Assembly: GCA_025356035.1 (NCBI GenBank)
Contig: JANXYN010000119.1
Span: forward strand, 1 to 34,973
Direction of reading: 5' to 3'
DNA length: 34,973 nucleotides
Origin: Geobacteraceae bacterium
Lineage (GTDB): Bacteria > Desulfobacterota > Desulfuromonadia > Geobacterales > Geobacteraceae
This document shows, one piece after another, positions 2,445 through 29,792 of this stretch; position 1 is the stretch's first letter; each line of letters starts with the position of its first letter. The notes below the pieces were generated by a model. That model did not search any database, was not told where the DNA came from, and worked only from the letters and a program-made list of their open reading frames with translations. Position numbers and translations under genes: made by a program.

Positions 2445-4415
2445 CTACCTGAGCCCCTCCGCCACCACCTCCGCCACATCCCGCACCCGCACCTGACCGG
2501 CCTGCTCGTCCTTCAATCCATCCTCCAGCATAGTCATGCAGTAGGGACAGCTGACGCAGACCGTGTCGGGCTTTTCGGCAAGAGCCTCCCTGACCCTGGT
2601 TAGGTTAATCCTGGTGCCCAGGAACTCCTCCAGCCACATCCTCCCCCCGCCGGCGCCGCAACAGAAGGAGTTATTGTGGTGCCGCTCCATTTCCAGCGGC
2701 GCCGAACCGGTAGCGGTGGCAATCACCTGGCGCGGCGCGGTATAGACGCTGTTGTGCCGCCCCAGGTAACAGGGATCGTGGTAGACGAGCCGGCCGAGAT
2801 CGGTCACCTGCTGCTTCAGCTTGAGTCTGCCGCTCTGCAACAACTCGTCGATCAGCTGGCTGTGGTGGATCACCTCCAGCTCCAGGCCGTACTGGCGGTA
2901 GTCGTTCTGCAGGGTGGAGAAACAGTGGGGACACTGGGTAATGACCTTGGTCACCCCCTTCTCCTGAAACAGCTTGACGTTCTCCTGGGCCATCCGGTCG
3001 AAGACATACTCGTTCCCCAGTCTTCGCAGGCTGTCGCCGCAGCATCGCTCCTCTTTCCCCAGTATCCCCCAGGAGATGCCGGCGGCGTTGAGGATGGTGG
3101 CGACAGCCAGGGTCACCTGTTTGCTTCGTGAATCGAAGGCGCCGGCGCAGCCGACGTAGAAGAGATACTCGGTCTTGCCCGCCTCGAAAGGTTGCACCTC
3201 GAGGATCGAGTGCCATTTGCTCCGCTCGCTGGGCGCGATCCCCCAGGGGTTGGAGCGCTGCTCCATGTTTTCGAACAGGTTCAGCAGTTCCTCGGGGAAT
3301 TTTGCCTCCATCTGCACCAGATGCCGACGCATCTTGATCAGCTTCGGCATCTGCTCGATAAAGACCGGGCAAGTCTCCATGCAGGCACCGCAGGTGGTGC
3401 AGGCCCAGATGGCGTCTTCGGCGACGCTCCCCGCCCCGGCCGAGCCGATCAGCGGGACTGCCGCTGCCCCCCCTTGCTGCAGAGCCGCGCCGTTACGCTG
3501 CAGGTTGAGTTTGATGTCGTAGATCACCTGCCGCGGGTTCAACGGCTTGCCGGTGATGCCGGCCGGGCAGACATTCTGACACTGGCCGCATTTGGTGCAG
3601 GCAAAGGAGTCGAACAGGTCCTTCCAGGTGAGCTGGTCGACCGCCGCTGCTCCATAACTCCGCCCGGCAGCAAACTCCTCCCACGGCTGGCTGTTCGGCA
3701 GCTCGAAACGACGCAGGAAGCAGTTGAGGATCGAGGTGATGATATGCAGATGCTTGGTGTAGGGGACCAGCAGGTTGATGAAGAGGATCAGGACCACCGC
3801 GTGCAGCCACCAGCAGCCGCTGGCAATCGACTCCAGCAGGGGCTCCCTCTGGTTGCCGAGGAGTTGGGCGAGGGAGGAGGAAGCGGGCATCCAGGCGTCG
3901 ACCGTAGCCCGCCCCAGGGCGATTTCCGTGGCGTGGATGCCGAAGAAGGCGGCCATGTGCAGGGCGATCAGAGTGAGGATGAAATAGGCCTCGAAGGTCC
4001 GCCCCTCTGGATAGGGGGGGAAGATGCAGCGTCGAATCATCGCGATCAGAGCCGCCGCCAGCGCCAGCAGCGAGGCGATGTCGAAACAGGTCAAAAGCGG
4101 ACCATAGATGGAAGCGGGGAGCCTGGCCAGGCTCAGGGCGGGGAAGATGCCGCTCACCATGAATTCCAGGTTGGCCAGGAGCAGGATGATGAACGACCAG
4201 AAGATGACCAGGTGGTTGAAGCCAAACGGCTTGCGCAGCACCCGCTTCTGGCCGAAGGCATAGACCAGCATCGCCCGGAACCGGGCCCCCAGCCGGTCGA
4301 ACCGCTCTTCTGGTTGACCGAGCCTGACCAGGCGAAACCGCCGGTACAGGCTGGCGGCAAAGAGGACGAGGGAGGCGATGAAAAGCGGAGCGATGATGGC
4401 AGGATTAGGTTGCAT
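2445..4415 (-). CDS. Membrane Fe-S oxidoreductase, Etf:(methyl)menaquinone oxidoreductase type (EMO-like)
   Basis: The 656-residue protein combines an N-terminal NarI-like membrane part (about five or six hydrophobic segments, residues 5-235, with histidines that could bind heme b) with a cytoplasmic iron-sulfur part. Two ferredoxin motifs Cx2Cx2Cx3CP lie at C273-C283 and C339-C349. Two CCG domains of the heterodisulfide reductase type follow, with CCG at 458-460 and a second CCGAGGG near 590. This is the architecture of the membrane proteins that take electrons from EtfAB and reduce menaquinone during acyl-CoA oxidation. It lies downstream of etfB and etfA in the same orientation, which supports that role. 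GAGG stands 7 nt before the ATG. An HdrD/GlpC-like or lactate-linked role is less likely given the neighbours. Confidence 0.88.
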   Translation of the reverse strand: MQPNPAIIAPLFIASLVLFAASLYRRFRLVRLGQPEERFDRLGARFRAMLVYAFGQKRVLRKPFGFNHLVIFWSFIILLLANLEFMVSGIFPALSLARLPASIYGPLLTCFDIASLLALAAALIAMIRRCIFPPYPEGRTFEAYFILTLIALHMAAFFGIHATEIALGRATVDAWMPASSSLAQLLGNQREPLLESIASGCWWLHAVVLILFINLLVPYTKHLHIITSILNCFLRRFELPNSQPWEEFAAGRSYGAAAVDQLTWKDLFDSFACTKCGQCQNVCPAGITGKPLNPRQVIYDIKLNLQRNGAALQQGGAAAVPLIGSAGAGSVAEDAIWACTTCGACMETCPVFIEQMPKLIKMRRHLVQMEAKFPEELLNLFENMEQRSNPWGIAPSERSKWHSILEVQPFEAGKTEYLFYVGCAGAFDSRSKQVTLAVATILNAAGISWGILGKEERCCGDSLRRLGNEYVFDRMAQENVKLFQEKGVTKVITQCPHCFSTLQNDYRQYGLELEVIHHSQLIDELLQSGRLKLKQQVTDLGRLVYHDPCYLGRHNSVYTAPRQVIATATGSAPLEMERHHNNSFCCGAGGGRMWLEEFLGTRINLTRVREALAEKPDTVCVSCPYCMTMLEDGLKDEQAGQVRVRDVAEVVAEGLR

Positions 4416-4515: not shown

Positions 4516-5850
4516 TTATTGACCCTTAGCCTGTTTCAGCTCCCGGACCCTCCTGGTGATGGCCGGGATGATCTGGAACAGGTCGCCAACCAGGCCGTAG
4601 GTGGCCACCTGGAAGATGGGGGCGTCCTTGTCCCGGTTGATGGCGATGATCAGGTCCGAGTCCTGCATCCCGACCAGATGCTGAATGGCGCCGGAGATGC
4701 CACAGGCGATGTAGACCTTCGGCCGGACAGTCTTGCCGGTCTGCCCCACCTGGCGGTCAGCTGGCATCCAGCCGGCATCAACCGCGCTGCGTGAGGCACC
4801 TACCACCCCCCCAACTTCGTTTGCCAACTCCTGGAGCATGGCAAAATTCTCCTTCCCCATCATGCCACGGCCGCCCGAGATGATAAATTCAGCCCCCGCG
4901 ATGTCGATCTGCTCCCCTTGCTTGTCACTGATCACCTGCAGGACCCTGATGAGGAGCTCTTCCTCCCGCAGCGGTAGATCAACCCTGACAATCTCCCCAG
5001 TGGCGCCCGGCATATGCTCCGGCATGGACATAACGTGGGGACGGACGGTGGACATCTGTGGCCGGTAATGGTCGCAGACAATGGTCGCCATGATGTTACC
5101 GCCGAACGCGGGCCGAGTCTGGAGCAGGTTACGTTTTTCGTCAATGGCAAGACCGGTGCAGTCGGCGGTGAGGCCGGTCTGCAGGCGGGTTGCCACGGCG
5201 CCGGCCAGGTCCCGGCCAAGGCCGGTGGCACCCATCAGGATGATCTCCGGCTGGTACTTCCCCACCAGATAGCTGACTGCCTCCAGATAGGAGGCAGTGC
5301 GGTAATGTTTGAACACCGGCGCATCGACCAGGTAGACCTTTTGCGCGCCGTAGGCGAAAGCCTCGTCGCAGAGATGCCCGACCTGGTCCCCGACGACCAC
5401 GGCGCAAAGCTCGACGTTCAAATCCCGGGCCAGTAGCCCCCCGGCCCAGAGTAATTCCCACGAGACCTTGGCCGCCTCTCCGCCGGTCTGTTCAACAAAA
5501 ACCCAGACCCCTTGATAGGCCGCCAGTTTTTGCCGCAACTGGGCTTCTTCATCACTGATCTCCACCGCAACCGGGGGTGCACCTGCCTGTTCCTGCAGTT
5601 TTTTCAGCTCAGCCAGAACCTGCTTTTCTTCCAGGGTAAAAAACATCTCCAGGGCCGTTACTGGACAGGCCTTAACACACTTGGCGCAGCCGATGCACTT
5701 GCCAAAATCAATGATCGGCTCGCCCTTTTCGTTCATCTCCACGGCATCGACCGGGCAGGCGCTCTGGCAGCGGGCTCCGCAGGCAATACAACTGTTATCG
5801 ATGAGACGTGCAGTGCCGCGTGGCTTCTTCGGTGGTTTCTGTTCGGCCAT
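4516..5850 (-). CDS. etfA: Electron transfer flavoprotein alpha subunit with N-terminal ferredoxin domain
   Basis: The 444-residue product starts with two 4Fe-4S motifs: C21-C24-C28-C32 (spacing Cx2Cx3Cx3CP, one residue longer than usual) and C52-C55-C58-C62 (standard). A linker leads to the Etf alpha N-terminal domain (about 115-300). The C-terminal FAD domain (about 315-440) has the signature around C-G-I-S-G-A-I-Q-H and A-I-N-R-D-K-D-A-P-I-F. Plain EtfA is about 310-330 residues, so the length is explained by the ferredoxin extension, known from Etfs of anaerobes. With EtfB it accepts electrons from acyl-CoA dehydrogenases and passes them to the membrane protein encoded next. AAGGA precedes the ATG by 8 nt. 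The intervals on both sides hold heptamer arrays rather than promoters. Confidence 0.93.
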   Translation of the reverse strand: MAEQKPPKKPRGTARLIDNSCIACGARCQSACPVDAVEMNEKGEPIIDFGKCIGCAKCVKACPVTALEMFFTLEEKQVLAELKKLQEQAGAPPVAVEISDEEAQLRQKLAAYQGVWVFVEQTGGEAAKVSWELLWAGGLLARDLNVELCAVVVGDQVGHLCDEAFAYGAQKVYLVDAPVFKHYRTASYLEAVSYLVGKYQPEIILMGATGLGRDLAGAVATRLQTGLTADCTGLAIDEKRNLLQTRPAFGGNIMATIVCDHYRPQMSTVRPHVMSMPEHMPGATGEIVRVDLPLREEELLIRVLQVISDKQGEQIDIAGAEFIISGGRGMMGKENFAMLQELANEVGGVVGASRSAVDAGWMPADRQVGQTGKTVRPKVYIACGISGAIQHLVGMQDSDLIIAINRDKDAPIFQVATYGLVGDLFQIIPAITRRVRELKQAKGQ

Positions 5851-5874: not shown

Positions 5875-6033
5875 AGAATCCAGGAGCCAGGATTCAGGAG
5901 CCAGAATGAAGATCTTCAGGCTTCTGACTTCTGACTTCTGACTTCTGACTTCTGACTTCTGACTTCTGGCTTCTGGCTTCTGGCTTCTGGCTTCTGGCTT
6001 CTGGCTTCTGACTCCTGGCTCCTGGCTCCTTTG
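5875..6033. repeat. Inverted heptamer array (locus b), expanded right arm
   Basis: The left arm has five units (AGAATCC, AGGAGCC, AGGATTC, AGGAGCC, AGAATGA) and the core is AGATC. The right arm begins TTCAGGC. From 5922 to 6026 it then holds 15 perfect-period units: six TTCTGAC, six TTCTGGC, one TTCTGAC and two TCCTGGC. It ends with TCCTTTG. The other loci have four or five right units, so this arm has grown by tandem duplication. It lies between etfB and etfA. Confidence 0.9.
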
Positions 6034-6039
6034 ATAGTT

Positions 6040-6852
6040 CTACAGCGCCAACAGTTCCTTCTCCAAAAGCTTATCCACCAGCAGGCCGGCCGCTCCGACC
6101 GGGTCGTTGATCCCGTCGCCGAGCATCTCCCCTGTGGTCCGTTCCGGCGAAAAGATTCTGCTCACCCAGGTAGGGGAGCCCTTCAGACCGATGGTGGTTG
6201 CGTCCAGCTGCAATATCTGGTTGTTCCAGAGCTGAATCTCTGCCGTGCCAGCCATCAGGCGCATCGGGACCTTGGCGTAGCGGGGCCGGTTGATCTCCCG
6301 CACCACGGTGAGCAGAGCCGGCAGCGGTGCCTCAACGATCTCGTGGCGCCCCTCAAGTTTGCGCCGAACCCTGATCCGCCGTCCCTGCATATCCAGCTCC
6401 TCGATACGGTCCACCAGCGTGAGCTGGCTGTAGCCAAGGCGGGTGGCGATGCCAGGACCGACCTGGGCAGTATCGCCATCAATGGTCTGCTTGCCGCAGA
6501 TGACCAGGGCGATCTCATCCTGTTCGGCTAGCTTGGCGATTGCGGTAGCCAATACTTTGCTGGTGGCCAGTGTGTCGGCCCCGCCAAAGGCACGATCGGA
6601 GAGGAGAATCGCCTCATCGGCCCCGAGTGAGAGAGCCTTGCGCATGGTCGCTTCGGCATTGGGCGGGCCCATGGAAATGGCAGCTACCCGGCAACCAAAC
6701 CGGTCCTTGAGCTTTAAGCACTCTTCCAGGGCATGGGTGTCAAAGGGGTTCATGATGAACGGAATTCCCTCCCGCACCAGGGTGTTGGTCACCGGGTCGA
6801 TCTGCACCTGGGTAGTGTCGGGGACCTGTTTAATGCAGGCAACAATGAGCAT
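6040..6852 (-). CDS. etfB: Electron transfer flavoprotein beta subunit
   Basis: The 270-residue product has the EtfB fold from the first residue (V-A-C-I-K-Q-V-P-D), an N-P-F-D-T-H-A-L-E-E segment near residue 38, the nucleotide-binding stretch with G-A-D-E-A (about 75-80) and I-C-G-K-Q-T-I-D-G-D-T-A-Q-V-G-P near 119-134. The ATG at 6852 was preferred over a TTG two codons upstream because GGAGG stands 6 nt before it. It forms the EtfAB heterodimer with the next gene and heads the operon etfB, etfA, oxidoreductase. The promoter region holds an HcpR-like palindrome. The C-terminal tail L-L-E-K-E-L-L-A-L is typical of EtfBs that dock on an EtfA. Confidence 0.93.
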   Translation of the reverse strand: MLIVACIKQVPDTTQVQIDPVTNTLVREGIPFIMNPFDTHALEECLKLKDRFGCRVAAISMGPPNAEATMRKALSLGADEAILLSDRAFGGADTLATSKVLATAIAKLAEQDEIALVICGKQTIDGDTAQVGPGIATRLGYSQLTLVDRIEELDMQGRRIRVRRKLEGRHEIVEAPLPALLTVVREINRPRYAKVPMRLMAGTAEIQLWNNQILQLDATTIGLKGSPTWVSRIFSPERTTGEMLGDGINDPVGAAGLLVDKLLEKELLAL

Positions 6853-6900
6853 CGGCAACCTCCGGCAGAGGACATGAATGGATAACCTGCTTCTGCAGTG

Positions 6901-6942
6901 ATCTTACCCCACCTCTCCGCCGGAATCCTCGACCTGGGTCAA
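6901..6942 (-). promoter_or_regulatory. HcpR-like operator and -10 box of the etf operon
   Basis: On the minus strand TTGACC-CA-GGTCGA (6942-6929) is a palindrome with one mismatch. The hexamer TAAGAT (6906-6901) begins exactly 30 nt from its centre. That puts the palindrome at -41.5, the class II activator position of the CRP/FNR family. The same palindrome and spacing occur before hcp (28003-28044). Regulator identity is inferred from the known HcpR-type site, not shown. Confidence 0.6.
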
Positions 6943-6997: not shown

Positions 6998-8866
6998 TTA
7001 AGGTCGTTGGCAAGCACGGAAAGAGGCAAAAAGCTCGATTGCTGCGTTTTCACGCCCGCACGCCTTAAGTGCCTTGATAATTGTAGCGCGCTGATCGGGG
7101 AGATGGTAGAGAAGCAGCGCCTTTTGCAAGATTTTTTCCCGGTCGGTGCGGGGGACATGGACCTCATGCCGGCTGAATGGGTCGATTCCCGTATGATAGA
7201 TACAGGTGGCAAGCGTCCCCGGGGTGGGGGTAAAGTCCTGCACCTGCTCCACCTTCAACCCGCTCCGTTTGAGAAACAGCGCCAGCTCCACCATGTCATC
7301 CAGCGTACACCCCGGATGCCCCGACATGAGATAGGGGACAATGAACTGTTTTTTACCGAGCCTTTTGCTCTCGGCCTTGAAGTGAGTCAGAAAACGCTCG
7401 AATGCAACCCGGCCTGGTTTGCGCATGGCTGCCGTGACCTTATCGGCGATATGTTCCGGGGCGACCTTGAGCAGCCCCCCCACGTGATGGGCAAGCAGTT
7501 CGGCCAGATAATCGGGCTGATGCTCAAGCAGATCATAGCGGACGCCGGAGGCTACCGTCACATGCTTCACCCCGGCAATGGTGCGGACAGTTCTGAGCAG
7601 CTCGGCAGCCTGCTTCCCGGACTTCTGCAGATTTTTGCACGGCCGGGGATAGAGGCAGCTATCCTTCCGGCAGGTGGCCAGTGCCGCAGGGTCCGCGCAG
7701 CTAAGGCCGTACATGTTGGCGGTGGGTCCCCCGACATCGCTAATGCTCCCACGGAACCATTTCTGCGTGGTGAGTCTGCGGATCTCGTCGACAATGGAGC
7801 TTTTACTGCGCGACTGGATGGTTTTCCCCTGGTGGTGGGTAATGGCGCAGAAGGCACAGCCGCCGAAGCAGCCACGATGGGTGGTAACAGAGCTCCGGAT
7901 CTGCTCATAGGCCGGGATCGGCTCGGTATAGGATGGATGAGGGGCTTTGCAGAAGGGGAGCAGGTAAAGCGCATCCAGTTCCTTTTCGGAAAGGGGAAGC
8001 GCCGGCGGGTTACAGACCAGCCAGCGGTCGCCATGTTGTTGCACCAAGGCTTTAGCACAGAAGGGGTTCTGCTCCTGGGCGATAAGGCGAAATGCCTCGG
8101 CATAGATGAATCGGTCGCTGGAGACTGCCTCGAAGGATGGCAATTCCTCAGGGGAACTCAGCCGTGGCGCATTTGCAGACGAGGTCGCCGAGGCTTTTGA
8201 ATCCCCGACGCACTCTGAATCCAGCGAAGCAGGCATTGTTCCAGCAAAGGCGGGTAAGGTACGCTCCACATAGGCCGTGCCGCGGATATCCCGGATCTCC
8301 CGGAACGACTCCCCTTTCCGCAGGCGCTCGGCCAACTCCAATAACGGCCGCTCCCCCATGCCGAACACCAACAGGTCGGCCTTGGCATCAAAGAGGATGG
8401 ACCGGCGCACCTTGTCCTCCCAGAAGTCATAATGGGCGAAACGACGCAGGGACGCCTCGATGCCGCCGATAACCACCGGCACATCCTTATATGCTTCCTT
8501 CAGTCGCGAGGTGTAGATGATGGTGGCACGATTGGGACGGGCGCCGTGGCGATTGCCGGGGGTGTAGGCGTCGTCTCGGCGAATTTTTCTGGCTGGGGTA
8601 TAATGGGCCACCATGGAATCCATGGCACCGGCGGCAACCGCAAAGAAGAGCCGCGGTCGACCCAGGGTCATGAACGGCTCCTTGGCATGCCAGTCTGGCT
8701 GGGGGATGATCCCGACCCGAAACCCGTGAGACTCAAGAAAACGTGCCAGGAGCGGCACCCCGAAAGAAGGGTGGTCAATATAGGCGTCGCCGGTGACAAA
8801 GATGACGTCCAACTCGTCCCAGCCGCGCTTTGAGGCATCTGCTTTGGTTATTGGGAGAAAAGACAT
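6998..8866 (-). CDS. YgiQ-family radical SAM protein
   Basis: The 622-residue product belongs to the YgiQ/UPF0313 radical SAM family. The N-terminal part (about 1-310) is the family-specific domain, with [17 protein letters not shown] near residue 20 and [17 protein letters not shown] near 130-147. The radical SAM CxxxCxxC is C333-C337-C340. The substrate of the family is unknown. A low-complexity stretch around residues 202-236 (rich in A, S and E) lies where homologues, as I recall them, go straight from R-G-T-A-Y to E-L-P-S-F, so it looks like an inserted segment. The ribosome site is weak (AAGAAAG before the ATG at 8866). It is downstream of argC after a heptamer array and may be cotranscribed. 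Confidence 0.9.
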
Positions 8867-8972: not shown

Positions 8973-10013
8973 TTACGGAAACAGCGCCAGCCCTTCCAGC
9001 CCCAGGCTCTCCGGGAAGCCGTTCATGATGTTGAGGTTCTGGATCGCCTGGCCGGCCGCACCTTTCACCAGGTTATCTATAACGGAGACCACGATCACCC
9101 GGCCGGTCCGGCTATCCACGGTGAGGCCGATGTCGCAGAAGTTGGAGCCACGCACGTGGGCGGTTGAGGGGAAGCTCCCAGCTGGGAGCACCCTGACGAA
9201 GGGTTCGCCCTGATAATACTCCTCATAGACAGCCAGCAGGTCGGCCGTTGTCTGCGCCACGACGGGGGTAGCATAAATGGTGGAGAGTATCCCCCGATCC
9301 ATCGGGACCAGGTGCGGAGTAAAAGAAATGGTCACCTTTTTCCCGGCCAGCAGCGCCAGCTCCTGCTCGGTCTCCGGGATATGGCGGTGCACACCGCCAA
9401 CGCCATAGGCCTTGAAGCCGTCATTAACCTCGCAGAAGAGGTTTTCCACCTTGGCGCTCCGCCCCGCTCCTGTTACCCCGGATTTGGAATCGGCAATGAT
9501 GGTGGCGGGATCAATCAGCCGCTTCTTCAACAAAGGGGCCAGGCCAAGGATGATGCTGGTCGGATAACAGCCGGGATTGGCCACCAGATCCGCCTCAGCG
9601 ATCTTCGCCCGCCGCACCTCCGGCAGGCCATAGACTGCCTGTTTCAGAAGCTCGGGGCTGAGATGGGGCTCGTACCACTTGGCATATTCCTTGGGGTCAT
9701 GGAGCCGATAATCGGCCGACAGGTCCACCACCCGCTTCCCAAGCTTGATAAAAGTAGGGACCACTTCCATGGCTGCCTTGTGCGGCAGGGCGGTGAAGAT
9801 GAAGTCGGCCTTGTCGGCGATCCGGACCGGTTCCAGGTTCTCCAGCAGCATGTCGCAGCGTCCCCGTAGCGTCGGAAACACCTCCGAGATTCGCTTCCCG
9901 GCACTTTGCTCGGAAGTCACGCAGGTCACCGCCACCTCCGGGTGGCAGTATAGAAGCCGCAACAGCTCGACACCGGTATAGCCGCTGGCTCCGACAATGG
10001 CAACCTTTAACAT
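8973..10013 (-). CDS. argC: N-acetyl-gamma-glutamyl-phosphate reductase
   Basis: The enzyme makes N-acetylglutamate semialdehyde from the acyl phosphate with NADPH, the third step of arginine synthesis. The 346-residue product has the nucleotide-binding start [16 protein letters not shown] (residues 4-19), the catalytic Cys149 in N-P-G-C-Y-P-T-S, and the late motif [11 protein letters not shown] typical of the family. The ATG at 10013 was chosen because the conserved N-terminus begins there and AAGGAG lies 6 nt upstream. A longer frame to 10058 adds 15 non-conserved residues. It follows rpsI on the same strand, after a terminator and a heptamer array, so it likely has its own promoter, which I could not identify. 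Confidence 0.96.
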
Positions 10014-10057
10014 GGAAGACTCCTTGTTTATCGCCACAGACGCGCATGGCTTTCTCA

Positions 10058-10131
10058 AGAATTCAGGAGCCAGGAGTCAGAATCCAGAAGGTTTTATTCT
10101 GGCTCCTGACTCCTGGCTTCTGGCTCCTTTG
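10058..10131. repeat. Inverted heptamer array (locus d)
   Basis: The left units are AGAATTC, AGGAGCC, AGGAGTC, AGAATCC and AGAAGG (10058-10091), the core is TTTTA, and the right units are TTCTGGC, TCCTGAC, TCCTGGC, TTCTGGC and TCCTTTG (10097-10131). It lies between rpsI and argC. The core is the inverse of that in loci a and c, so this copy is flipped or was rearranged. Confidence 0.85.
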
Positions 10132-12034: not shown

Positions 12035-13054
12035 TCATTTAAGATATTTCTCGATCAGGATTTCGGCAATCTGCACCGCATTGGTGGCCGCCCCCTTACG
12101 GATATTGTCCGCCACCACCCAGAGATTGAGTCCGTTCTCGATCGACTCGTCCTCGCGAATCCTCCCGACAAAGGTCAGATCCTGGCCGGCGACGTCAAGC
12201 GGCATCGGGTAGACCCTGTTCGTCACGTCGTCCACCAGTTTTACCCCGGGTGCACTGGTCAGGAGTTCCATCGCCTTAACGACGGTGAGCTTCTTCTCGG
12301 TCTCGATGTTCACCGCTTCGGAATGGCCATAGAAGACCGGCACCCGCACAGCGGTGGCGGTGACGCCGATCTCCGCCCCCATGATCTTCCTGGTTTCAAA
12401 GACCATCTTCATCTCTTCCTTGGTGTAGCCATTGGGGCCGAAGGAGTCGATCTGCGGCAGGCAGTTGAAGGCGATCTGGTATGGATAGACTTTTGCCTTG
12501 GCCGGCCGGCCGTTCAGCAGTTCCCCCACCTGGATGCGCAGCTCCTCAATCGCCTTCTTGCCGGTGCCAGAAACCGCCTGGTAGGTGGAGACCACGATCC
12601 GCTTGATCTTCGCGTAGTCGTGCAGCGGCTTCAGCGCAACCACCATCTGGATCGTGGAACAGTTGGGGTTGGAGATAATCCCCTTCTTGGTGTACTGGGC
12701 GATGGCGTGGGCGTTCACCTCGGGGACCACCAGCGGCACATCGTTATCCATCCGCCAGGCACTGGAGTTGTCGATGCAAACCGCCCCGGCTCTTGCCGCC
12801 GAAGGGCAGAACTCCTTGGCACGCTCGCCGCCGGCCGAAAACAGGACGATATCGATCCCCTCAAAGGAGTCGTGCTTCAACTCTTCAACCAAAACCGACT
12901 TCCCCTTGAACTCCAGGATCTCGCCGGCGCTCAGCTCACTGGCCAGATATCTGATCTTTCCGACCGGGAAATTGCGCTCTTCGAGACACTCGATCATCTG
13001 CTTGCCGACCACGCCGGTTGCACCGACGACAGCTACATTCCATAATTTGCCCAT
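12035..13054 (-). CDS. asd: Aspartate-semialdehyde dehydrogenase, Gram-positive/archaeal-like class
   Basis: The enzyme reduces aspartyl phosphate to aspartate semialdehyde, the branch point to lysine/diaminopimelate, threonine and methionine. The 339-residue product shows V-A-V-V-G-A-T-G-V-V-G (NADP binding, residues 7-17), catalytic Cys132 in N-P-N-C-S-T-I-Q, the Y-Q-A-V-S-G-T-G segment near 175 and R-V-P-V-F-Y-G-H-S-E-A-V carrying the substrate-binding Arg and active-site His. All key residues are present. GAGGAG lies 8 nt before the ATG. A second asd gene of a different class lies immediately upstream, so the pair is not a recent duplication. A TATAAT hexamer (13142-13137) is a possible -10 box, but no good -35 box fits it. 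Confidence 0.94.
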   Translation of the reverse strand: MGKLWNVAVVGATGVVGKQMIECLEERNFPVGKIRYLASELSAGEILEFKGKSVLVEELKHDSFEGIDIVLFSAGGERAKEFCPSAARAGAVCIDNSSAWRMDNDVPLVVPEVNAHAIAQYTKKGIISNPNCSTIQMVVALKPLHDYAKIKRIVVSTYQAVSGTGKKAIEELRIQVGELLNGRPAKAKVYPYQIAFNCLPQIDSFGPNGYTKEEMKMVFETRKIMGAEIGVTATAVRVPVFYGHSEAVNIETEKKLTVVKAMELLTSAPGVKLVDDVTNRVYPMPLDVAGQDLTFVGRIREDESIENGLNLWVVADNIRKGAATNAVQIAEILIEKYLK

Positions 13055-13211: not shown

Positions 13212-14309
13212 CTACTTCTCCATCAGAATGCGCAGCATCCGCCGCAAGGGCTCTGCAGCCCCCCAGAGGAGTTGGTCGCCACAGGTAAAGGCCTGCACAT
13301 ACTGGGGTCCCATCTTCATCTTGCGCAGGCGGCCGATGGGAACTGTGAGAGCCCCAGAGACTGCCGCCGGGGTGAGTTGGGCCAAAGTTTCAGCCTTGGT
13401 GTTGGGTACCAGTTTGACCCACTGGTTATCGTTTTTGATCAGGTTTTCGAGGTCGGCGAGCGGCAGGTCCTTGTTCAGCTTGATGGTCAAGGCCTGGCTG
13501 TGGCAGCGCATGGCGCTGACCCGCACACAGATGCCATCAACTGGAATAGGCTTAGCGCTGCCGAGAATCTTGTTGGTCTCGGCGTAACCTTTCCACTCCT
13601 CGCGGCTCTGGCCATCCTCCACCTCCCGGTCGATCCAGGGAAGCACATTCCCCGCCAGCGGGTTACCAAACTCCTTCTTCGGCATGGCGTCGCTACGCAG
13701 GGTGGCGGTGACCTGCCGGTCGATATCGAGAATGGCCGACGAGGGGTTCTTCAGCAGGGTGGCGACCGAACCGTGCAGGACCCCCATCTGGTCGAGCAGT
13801 TCGCGCATATTAGGAGCGCCGGCGCCGGAAGCGGCCTGGTAGGTCATGGAAGAGAGCCACTCTACGAGATTGGCGCGGAACAGCCCGCCCAAAGCCATCA
13901 GCATCAAGCTGACGGTGCAGTTACCGCCGATGAAATCCTTCTCCCCCTTGGCCAGGGCGGCGTCGATGACATTGCGGTTGACCGGGTCAAGAATGATCAC
14001 CGCATTTGGCTCCATTCGCAGCGTGCTGGCCGCGTCGATCCAATAACCCTGCCAGCCGGCTTTGCGCAGCGCCGGGTGAATCGCCTTGGTGTAGTCCCCT
14101 CCCTGACAGGTGAGGATCACATCCAGCTTTTTCAGCTCCGCGAGATCATCGGCATTCTTGAGGGTCCCGGCATTCATGGGGGCAGGCTGCCCCGCCTGGG
14201 AGGTGGAGAAGAATACCGGTTCAATCCCCGCAAAATCGTTCTCCTCCTGCATGCGCTGCAAAAGGACCGAGCCTACCATGCCACGCCAACCGATAAGTCC
14301 GACTTTCAT
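13212..14309 (-). CDS. asd: Aspartate-semialdehyde dehydrogenase, proteobacterial (E. coli-like) class
   Basis: The 365-residue product is the long class typified by the E. coli enzyme: [14 protein letters not shown] at the start, C-Q-G-G-D-Y-T near 68, Cys131 in [10 protein letters not shown], and [12 protein letters not shown] with the active-site His. All catalytic positions appear intact. AAAGGAAA precedes the ATG. It shares only the fold with the downstream asd. Two intact, differing enzymes for one step suggest separate coenzyme preference, regulation or pathway use, or one gained by transfer. It is downstream of leuB, separated by 192 bp that hold an imperfect inverted repeat. Confidence 0.94.
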
Positions 14310-27034: not shown

Positions 27035-27808
27035 TCAGTACTCGTTATCCTCGATGCCTACGCCGCCGCCGAGCGCCTCTATGATTGCCTCTGATTTGGC
27101 CTTTTCGTTTTCCAGCCTGTTGATCGCCGAGCGGAGCGCCCCCTCCGCCCACCTCTGTTCGCTGATGTCGATCAGGGTTCCCACCGTTGCGGGCCGTCCT
27201 GCGTAGCTGATCGGCTTCCCCCAGACCAAGGCGGCAAAGGTTGAGCCATCCTTGCGCAGCGCTTTCAGCTCGAAGGGCCTGGTCGATTCTCCGCGCCCGC
27301 GCCGGGCGATGTTTTGTGCAACCCAGTCACGCTGTTCCGGGATTACCAGGTCGAGCGGACTTAACTGGCCTGTCAATTCATTGGGGGAATAGCCATGGAG
27401 TTGGGCCATTGCCGGGTTGACATACCAGAAATGCAGGTCCTGGTGCACAAAAATTCCGGCAAGCGAAGCATCCATGATACTGTGGTATTGCAGCTCGCTC
27501 GCCGCCAGCGCTTTCTCGGCTCGCTCCTGCTCGGCCAAGTGAGCCAGGGCGAGTTCATCGGAACGCTGGAGCTTCTGCAGGGAGCGGTTAATTTGGAGAA
27601 ACAGCAGGCAGGCGGTGAGTGCGACAAAAAGCCACCCTTTTTCCGTCTGCAATCTGGTGAGGCTGGCAGGATCATCCACCAGCAAACCGAGCAGCCGGTC
27701 GGAAAATATGATCCAGGCCCCGCCAAGCAGTGCATAACTCGCGACGATCCGGATCGCAGCAGGTTGCAGATCGTTCAGGAGACTATCTGTGAGACGCTTG
27801 GCAGACAT
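27035..27808 (-). pseudogene. PAS-domain membrane sensor, 3'-truncated
   Basis: The 257-residue frame has two membrane helices (about 18-42 and 58-76), a short coiled coil, one PAS domain (about 103-228, with M-D-A-S-L-A-G-I-F-V and the C-terminal I-D-I-S-E-Q-R) and then another coiled coil that begins a second PAS-like block (K-S-E-A-I-I-E-A-L-G-G-G-V) and stops at once. Such sensors normally go on to a second PAS plus a kinase or cyclase. None follows: 104 nt later lies the hpnH terminator. I read it as the 5' remnant of a sensor histidine kinase. A genuine stand-alone PAS protein is possible. Confidence 0.65.
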
Positions 27809-28002: not shown

Positions 28003-28044
28003 TTGACCCAGGTCAAGGCGGCCTGCTGAAAAGCCAGTTATTCT
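28003..28044 (+). promoter_or_regulatory. HcpR-like operator and -10 box of hcp
   Basis: TTGACC-CA-GGTCAA (28003-28016) is a perfect palindrome of the type described for HcpR in metal-reducing deltaproteobacteria. TATTCT (28039-28044) starts exactly 30 nt from the centre, so the palindrome is at -41.5. Farther down, CCGGTTA (28046-28052) is inverted as TAACCGG (28074-28080) and could form a hairpin in the leader. The rest of the 27809-28139 gap holds nothing else I can support. Confidence 0.75.
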
Positions 28045-28139
28045 TCCGGTTACCAACCATTGAAAACCACCCATAACCGGTTATAGTTTAGGAGGCTTCT
28101 AAACAGCCGAGCGGGACCTAACCAACGAGGAGGAACACT

Positions 28140-29792
28140 ATGTCATCGATGTTTTGCAACCAGTGTGAGCAGGCAGCCAAAGGGGTCGGCTGCGACGTGA
28201 TGGGAGTTTGCGGCAAGAACCCGGAGGTGGCGGCGCTGCAGGATCTGATGTTGTTCGGCCTGAAGGGGATCGGCATCTACGCCGACAAAGCGCGGGAGCT
28301 CGGCAAAAAAGACGAGGTAATCGACTACTTCATCTTCGAGGGGCTCTTCACCACCGTCACCAACGTCGACTTCGACCCGGTACAGATCGCCGCCAAGCTC
28401 AGGAAGTGCTACGACCTCAAGGAAGAGGCCAAGGCGATGTATGAAACCGCCTACCGCGAGAAAAACGGCGGTCACGCCCCGCAAATCGCGACGGGCCCGG
28501 CAGCCTGGGTAATTGCCGGCAATCTGGAAGGGCTGGTCAAGCAGGGGCTGGAGCACGGCGTCAAGTCCCAGCACAGCGACCCGGACGTCCTCTCCGCCAT
28601 CGAAATCGTCATCTACGGCCTTAAGGGGATGGCCGCCTACGCCGATCACGCCTACATCCTAGGCCAGAAGGACGAGGAAGTCTTCGCCTTCTATCACAAG
28701 GCGCTGGCCGCCACCACCGACACCGCCAAGGGGCTGATGGACTATGTGGGCCTCGCCATGGAGATCGGCAAGCTGAACATCAAGGTGATGGGGATGCTGA
28801 ATGAGGGGCACGTGAAGCGCTTCGGCCACCCGATCCCGACCAAGGTCCAGCTCGGCACCAGGAAGAACAAGGGTATCCTGGTCTCCGGCCACGACCTGCG
28901 GATGCTGGAGGAACTCCTCAAGCAGACCGAGGGGAAAGGGATCGACGTCTACACCCACGGCGAGATGCTCCCGGCCCACGGCTATCCGGGGCTGAAGAAG
29001 TACCCGCACCTCTACGGCAACTTCGGCGGCGCCTGGCAAGACCAGTACAAGGAGTTCCCCCAGTTCCCCGGCGCCATCATCTTCAACACCAACTGCATCC
29101 AGCGCCCCGCCGAGAGTTACAAGGACCGGCTCTTCACCTGGGGCCAAGTGGGGTGGCCCGGCATCAAACACATGACCGGCTGGGACTTCTCCGAGGTTAT
29201 CAACAAGGCGCTCGAATGCCCCGACCTCCCCGAGGCGCCAGCCAAGGAGATCCTCACCGGCTTCGGCCACAACGCGGTGCTGGGCGTGGCCGACAAGGTA
29301 ATCGACGCGGTCAAGGCTGGAAAGATCCGGCACTTCTTCCTGATCGGCGGCTGCGACGGCGCCAAGTCCGGGCGCAATTACTACACCGAGCTGGCGGAAC
29401 AGGTCCCCCAGGACTGCGTGATCCTGACCTTGGCCTGCGGCAAATATCGCTTCAACAAGCTGGAGTTCGGCGACATCGGCGGCATCCCGCGCCTGCTCGA
29501 CATCGGCCAGTGCAACGACGCCTACTCGGCGGTGCAGATCGCCCTGGCCCTGGCCAACGCCTTCAACTGCGGGGTCAATGAACTGCCGCTGTCGATAATC
29601 CTCTCCTGGTACGAGCAGAAGGCCCACGTGATCCTCCTCTCCCTCCTCCACCTGGGGATTAAGAACATCAAGATCGGTCCGGCCCTCCCCGCCTACCTGA
29701 CGCCAAACGTCCTCAACTTCCTGGTGCAGAACTTCAACCTCGGCCAGATCACCACGGTGGAGGCGGATTTGAAGACGGCGCTGGGGAAATAG
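28140..29792 (+). CDS. hcp: Hydroxylamine reductase / hybrid cluster protein
   Basis: Hcp carries a cubane Fe-S cluster and a hybrid Fe-S-O cluster and acts in nitrosative stress as a nitric oxide or hydroxylamine reductase in the cytoplasm. The 550-residue product starts with the cubane ligands C6, C9, C18 and C24. Later come the hybrid-cluster regions, for example N-T-N-C-I-Q-R-P near 320 and T-L-A-C-G-K-Y-R-F near 430. GAGGAGG precedes the ATG by 6 nt. It is preceded by an HcpR-like site and followed by a strong terminator. The last 36 codons are duplicated 1,115 bp downstream. The C-terminus ends L-G-K, whereas the duplicate ends L-G. Confidence 0.97.
   Translation: MSSMFCNQCEQAAKGVGCDVMGVCGKNPEVAALQDLMLFGLKGIGIYADKARELGKKDEVIDYFIFEGLFTTVTNVDFDPVQIAAKLRKCYDLKEEAKAMYETAYREKNGGHAPQIATGPAAWVIAGNLEGLVKQGLEHGVKSQHSDPDVLSAIEIVIYGLKGMAAYADHAYILGQKDEEVFAFYHKALAATTDTAKGLMDYVGLAMEIGKLNIKVMGMLNEGHVKRFGHPIPTKVQLGTRKNKGILVSGHDLRMLEELLKQTEGKGIDVYTHGEMLPAHGYPGLKKYPHLYGNFGGAWQDQYKEFPQFPGAIIFNTNCIQRPAESYKDRLFTWGQVGWPGIKHMTGWDFSEVINKALECPDLPEAPAKEILTGFGHNAVLGVADKVIDAVKAGKIRHFFLIGGCDGAKSGRNYYTELAEQVPQDCVILTLACGKYRFNKLEFGDIGGIPRLLDIGQCNDAYSAVQIALALANAFNCGVNELPLSIILSWYEQKAHVILLSLLHLGIKNIKIGPALPAYLTPNVLNFLVQNFNLGQITTVEADLKTALGK
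29679..29786 (+). repeat. 108-bp direct repeat, copy 1 (hcp 3' end)
   Basis: This segment of hcp recurs at 30794-30901 with two differences. The pair encloses the hcp terminator and the PIN toxin/antitoxin genes. Confidence 0.97.

Follow-up and report, generated by a model that had tools for sequence, protein, structure and literature searches.

The electron transfer flavoprotein (etf) operon and the hybrid cluster protein gene (hcp) of this Geobacteraceae bacterium are preceded by the same palindrome at the same distance from a -10-like box, and they are probably two class II targets, activated together, of the one CRP/FNR regulator of the genome, a protein of HcpR1 type. This reading is built on computed features, that is, the sites, their spacing and conservation, the single regulator and its matching recognition helix.

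A common promoter layout at the etf operon and hcp

Within the window, i.e., the whole 34,973-nt stretch of DNA analysed, the etf operon lies on the reverse strand. Its first gene is etfB (6043..6852; Pfam ETF, NCBIfam EtfB-like), encoding the electron transfer flavoprotein beta subunit, which we read from the ATG at 6852 with GGAGG just upstream; the TTG at 6858 given in the ORF list is an unlikely start, and the ATG behind GGAGG was preferred. It is followed on the same strand by etfA, whose product has a 2x[4Fe-4S] ferredoxin domain at the N-terminus (4516..5850; Pfam ETF, ETF_alpha, Fer4) and by a gene for a membrane iron-sulphur protein with a hydrophobic N-terminal half (2445..4415; Pfam CCG x2, Fer4), whose product is the probable Etf:menaquinone oxidoreductase partner. 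This membrane iron-sulphur gene follows etfBA in relatives too, at 54-68% identity. EtfB, EtfA and the CCG/Fer4 membrane partner thus stand in one operon, the arrangement by which Etf:menaquinone oxidoreductase (EMO) operons are recognised, and the etf operon has the make-up of an acyl-CoA-to-menaquinone route, for which electron transfer is predicted. This etfB is the only close one in the genome (one match at E <= 1e-60). Between etfB and etfA lies a 7-bp tandem array of CTTCTGG/CTTCTGA (5914-6027; about 16 copies, 94% matches), and runs of the same heptamer also occur elsewhere in the genome, in L015. The window additionally holds two consecutive genes of the semialdehyde dehydrogenase family (12035-13054 and 13212-14309), with an isopropylmalate-dehydrogenase-type gene nearby, and a third member of the family at 8973-10058. 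The hcp gene (28140..29792, forward strand; Pfam Prismane 8e-170, NCBIfam PRK05290 over cut-off) encodes a hybrid cluster protein of the prismane/hydroxylamine reductase family; divergent from it is a gene for a PAS protein of 257 aa (27035-27808).

Upstream of etfB, the HcpR-type palindrome TTGACCCAGGTCGA occupies 6929..6942 on the reverse strand (centre 6935.5) and carries 11 of the 12 palindrome bases. The -10-like box TAAGAT (6901..6906, same strand) starts 22 nt past it, so that its first base stands 29.5 nt from the palindrome centre. At hcp, TTGACCCAGGTCAA (28003..28016, forward strand, centre 28009.5) carries all 12 bases, and the -10-like box TATTCT (28039..28044, forward strand) likewise starts 22 nt past the palindrome with its first base 29.5 nt from the centre, exactly the etf spacing. 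The claim of the earlier note that etfB and hcp share both the palindrome and the -10 spacing was borne out when the sequence was re-read, the distance being 29.5 nt in both cases. Transcription starts are expected near 6894 for etf and near 28051 for hcp, and at neither promoter is there a TTGACA-like -35 able to work alone. Use of the etf site by a divergent gene was ruled out, the upstream gene (6998-8866) being on the same strand.

Searching the window for the palindrome with up to three mismatches gave 22 matches against 14.7 expected, and the etf and hcp sites were the only matches with zero or one mismatch. In the whole genome 23 places matched with at most one mismatch, as against 5 for the reversed pattern, and a codon-usage ORF scan placed most of these near-copies within coding frames; the one exact copy besides that of hcp is also of this kind, lying in a penicillin-binding-protein-like gene. 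The 23 near-copies were therefore rejected as a regulon when taken together, and the genome by itself is weak evidence for the etf site, because most near-copies are in coding frames. The earlier note had held that many random copies genome-wide would speak against its reading; in this genome the near-copies are mostly coding, and it is the comparative data that carry the etf site. Whether the site is real is thus decided by the upstream counts, the EtfB tree, the exact copies in relatives and the -10 spacing.

Conservation of the sites in the order

A sample of 110 etfB upstream regions, all from the order, was searched for the palindrome. It was found in 33 of them with at least 10 of 12 bases, in 25 with at least 11 and in 13 with all 12, while mononucleotide shuffles gave 1.2, 0.05 and 0 and the reversed pattern 2, 0 and 0 at the same thresholds; one of the 33 is not taken as a promoter site, being too near the start codon. 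On the EtfB tree six changes of the site label are needed, and the starred branches force four gains or losses. Since the tree forces at least four changes, the etf site is not one copy inherited by near-identical strains. The site reads TTGACCCAGGTCAA at -88 in genus g9, which also has another, separate etf operon lacking it; in genus g13 it is seen in one paralogue group as TTGACCTAGGTCAA, at about -70, and in g24, which belongs to another family, as TTGACGTGGGTCAA at -158. Sites also occur in g3, g7, g10 and g28, mostly in weaker form, and the site was absent from all etfB upstream regions examined in genera g15 to g18. The etf-site link is recurrent, not universal, in the order. A scan of contigs with EtfB returned mostly Chloroflexota and distant delta-proteobacteria, in which the palindrome was not present; within this sampling the site is thus confined to the order.

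For hcp, the site is present in g1, g8, g9, g10, g14, g17, g18, g24, g25 and g28. Three hcp copies are common in genus g13, as they are in G. bemidjiensis, and the g13 copy closest to that of the window has no good site, although the g13 etf does have one; the etf and hcp promoters therefore do not always travel together. A small operon on contig C74 (L013:1223-1520) has a further near-copy in front of it, TTGACCCAGGTCAT when read towards the gene; its first product matches DUF1858 weakly, the second is a conserved cysteine-containing protein and the third a hemerythrin. In all 30 orthologous upstream regions this operon had the site at 9 or more bases, and in 28 also the -10 spacing, which makes it a better-supported HcpR target than etf and perhaps the most constant one of the order. 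With the DUF1858/hemerythrin operon also carrying the site, the make-up of the regulon is that expected for HcpR. Its conserved cysteine-containing protein presumably resembles FrdX of Desulfovibrio, which we take as a lead. In addition, a multihaem cytochrome c552-family gene on contig C171 (L097:1487-3012) has TTGACGTAGATCAA 75 nt upstream, and 11 of 30 orthologues of this gene have the site.

Exact palindromes are scarce, at 0 to 4 per genome in the eight relatives searched. Two members of the family, G008 and G014, have three and four copies, respectively, every one of them intergenic: in both genomes hcp, etf and a PAS protein have one each, and G014 has a further copy at a cytochrome c. 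A single copy, at hcp, occurs in G007 and likewise in G020; G017 has a copy at etf and one other; and the remaining three relatives lack the exact palindrome. The PAS-domain protein that is among the three or four exact targets in genus g9 is 151 aa long (L264:1501 and L257:1501, from G008 and G014).

The spacing to the -10 box is conserved along with the sites. A TANNNT box starts exactly 22 nt past the site in 16 of the 17 hcp promoters with a site and in 28 of 30 promoters of the DUF1858 operon; for etf, it starts 21, 22 or 23 nt past the site in 26 of 32 promoters, some promoters of relatives being offset by 1 nt, and the etf of genus g9 has a poor -10 box (AAGTCT-like). The three promoters of the organism's own genome share TTGACCCAGGTC, with TATTCT, TATGCT and TAAGAT at the same place. 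The class II activator at -41.5 proposed in the earlier note is thus well supported by geometry, in the form of predicted -10 boxes whose spacing is conserved across the order.

The single CRP/FNR regulator

We found the candidate regulator outside the window, on contig C40 (L016:1054-1791), as one ORF with both PF13545 (2.2e-18) and PF00027 (2.6e-24). In this genome, which is 99.77% complete, PF13545 matches this protein only; PF00027 matches it and two others, in whose frames no HTH domain was found. The regulator is therefore the one recognisable CRP/FNR transcription factor with cNMP_binding plus HTH_Crp_2 architecture. Its recognition helix, GTVSETLSR (P0001), places Ser at 180 and Glu at 181 in CRP positions, the Ser/Pro 180 with Glu 181 combination that is tied to TTGACnnnnGTCAA, and the 40 orthologue helices examined have Ser (Gly in two) with Glu. 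The search for a CRP/FNR gene recommended earlier thus ended at a single gene whose recognition helix matches the motif. Of 117 genomes of the order, 112 encode an orthologue, almost always in single copy, and the best solved relative is DNR, an NO-responsive regulator (E 3e-28). The protein has one cysteine and its orthologues have 0 to 3. Autoregulation of hcpR was looked for at 30 loci, and no upstream site of 10 or more bases was found. In delta-proteobacteria, HcpR proteins with Ser or Pro at 180 have been associated with the motif atTTGACCnnGGTCAAat / wyTTGACnnnnGTCAArw, while the Desulfovibrio HcpR has a CRP-like motif instead (Rodionov et al., 2004, 2005; PMC545781, PMC1274295). The HcpR1 of D. 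desulfuricans binds haem (PMC5701242).

These data bear on the nature of the signal. The same protein might act at both sites as a general anaerobic or redox activator, with hcp and etf as housekeeping targets and NO not being the signal; we consider this possible, though distinctly less likely than an HcpR1-type activator. Being the only CRP/FNR transcription factor of its genome and single-copy across the order, the protein is what a global regulator would be, its targets include the PAS protein and cytochromes, and the Geobacter HcpR regulons are predicted to hold ndh, nar and nrfHA (PMC1274295). However, 0 to 4 exact sites per genome, as counted in eight relatives, are very few for such a role; hcp and the DUF1858/hemerythrin operon, which stand out as the most constant targets, are of nitrosative-stress type; and the protein is not an O2-sensing FNR, because the FNR cysteine cluster is absent.

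Proposed regulation and relation to known systems

According to the HcpR1-type reading, a dimer of the regulator would bind TTGACCnnGGTCAA centred at about -41.5, overlapping the poor -35 region, and would recruit RNA polymerase to the TANNNT -10 box, so that both promoters would be turned on together. The expected signal would be NO, or the redox state that accompanies nitrate or nitrite. The etf operon would then raise acyl-CoA electron flow into menaquinone, while Hcp and the DUF1858/hemerythrin operon would handle NO. Physiologically, such control could supply N-oxide respiration with electrons, the role predicted for ndh in the HcpR regulons of Geobacter, or could make good the loss of Fe-S proteins to NO damage. 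All of this, from binding and activation to the NO signal and the two purposes, is predicted from sequence. Since nrfHA, nar and ndh are predicted members of the Geobacter HcpR regulon as well (PMC1274295), a role in N-oxide respiration plus nitrosative stress fits better than stress alone; an entry point of electrons into the quinone pool therefore fits an N-oxide-respiration regulon. The further proposition, which we consider as likely as not, is that an NO-responsive HcpR couples the oxidation of acyl-CoA (from fatty acids or aromatics) into the quinone pool with NO defence, that this link was gained or kept repeatedly, and that the sole close Etf route of the organism is a nitrosative-stress or N-oxide-respiration gene set.

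It is unlikely that the regulator instead represses etf through occupancy of the -35, or has opposite effects on hcp and etf, and so shuts down acyl-CoA oxidation during stress. The site does overlap the -35 position, and HcpR is a predicted repressor of sat and apsAB in Desulfovibrio (PMC545781); but the etf site is placed at -41.5 just like that of hcp, a gene which nitrite up-regulates in D. vulgaris (PMC1274295), and both promoters lack a TTGACA-like -35 sufficient by itself. That the etf palindrome is a functionless chance near-match in a GC-rich genome is very improbable, since, for all its one mismatch and the 23 near-copies, mostly in coding frames and including the exact one in the penicillin-binding-protein-like gene, other genera keep it before etfB, along with its -10 spacing, where the surrounding sequence has diverged.

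Joint activation of etf and hcp by the HcpR1-type protein would extend what is known of HcpR regulons, which have been associated with NO defence and with N-oxide or sulfate respiration. An Etf-quinone entry under an HcpR site suggests that these anaerobes retune the supply of acyl-CoA electrons when nitrogen oxides appear, a point of interest for the way in which metal reducers and degraders of aromatics withstand nitrate in soils and aquifers. Since each genome has a single CRP/FNR regulator and few exact sites, the prediction is readily testable. The HcpR motif and regulator type have been known since 2004, and etf would be a new target, recurrent across genera. As the earlier note had supposed in calling control of an Etf branch by a nitrosative-stress regulator new, no published etf/HcpR link was found in the main text of the papers searched.

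Among known systems, the closest is the HcpR regulon with the motif atTTGACCnnGGTCAAat in Desulfotalea, Desulfuromonas and Geobacter (Rodionov et al., 2004, 2005), in which the palindrome is identical and hcp is a core target, and which is alike also in its CRP/FNR protein with Ser 180/Glu 181 and in its hemerythrin and cytochrome-type extra targets. For Desulfuromonas and Geobacter these authors name nrfHA, ndh, nar, dnrN, yccM and others, whereas the etfB-etfA-membrane Fe-S operon is not named in their main text. DNR of Pseudomonas aeruginosa (PDB 3dkw) shares the recognition-helix class x-E-T-x-S-R and the absence of an FNR cysteine cluster, but it controls denitrification (nir, nor and nos), and its motif, TTGATnnnnATCAA, is FNR-box-like. 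The layout of the etf and hcp promoters resembles that of class II CRP/FNR-dependent promoters in having the site centre 29.5 nt before the -10 box, at about -41.5, and a poor -35, their starts being predicted ones. G. metallireducens has nine etf pairs, seven of which adjoin Fe-S protein genes (PMC2700814). The EMO systems of Geobacter and of syntrophs likewise combine both Etf subunits with a CCG/Fer4 membrane protein in a single operon; in contrast to them, the predicted system described here is the only close etf operon of its genome and lies under an HcpR-type site.
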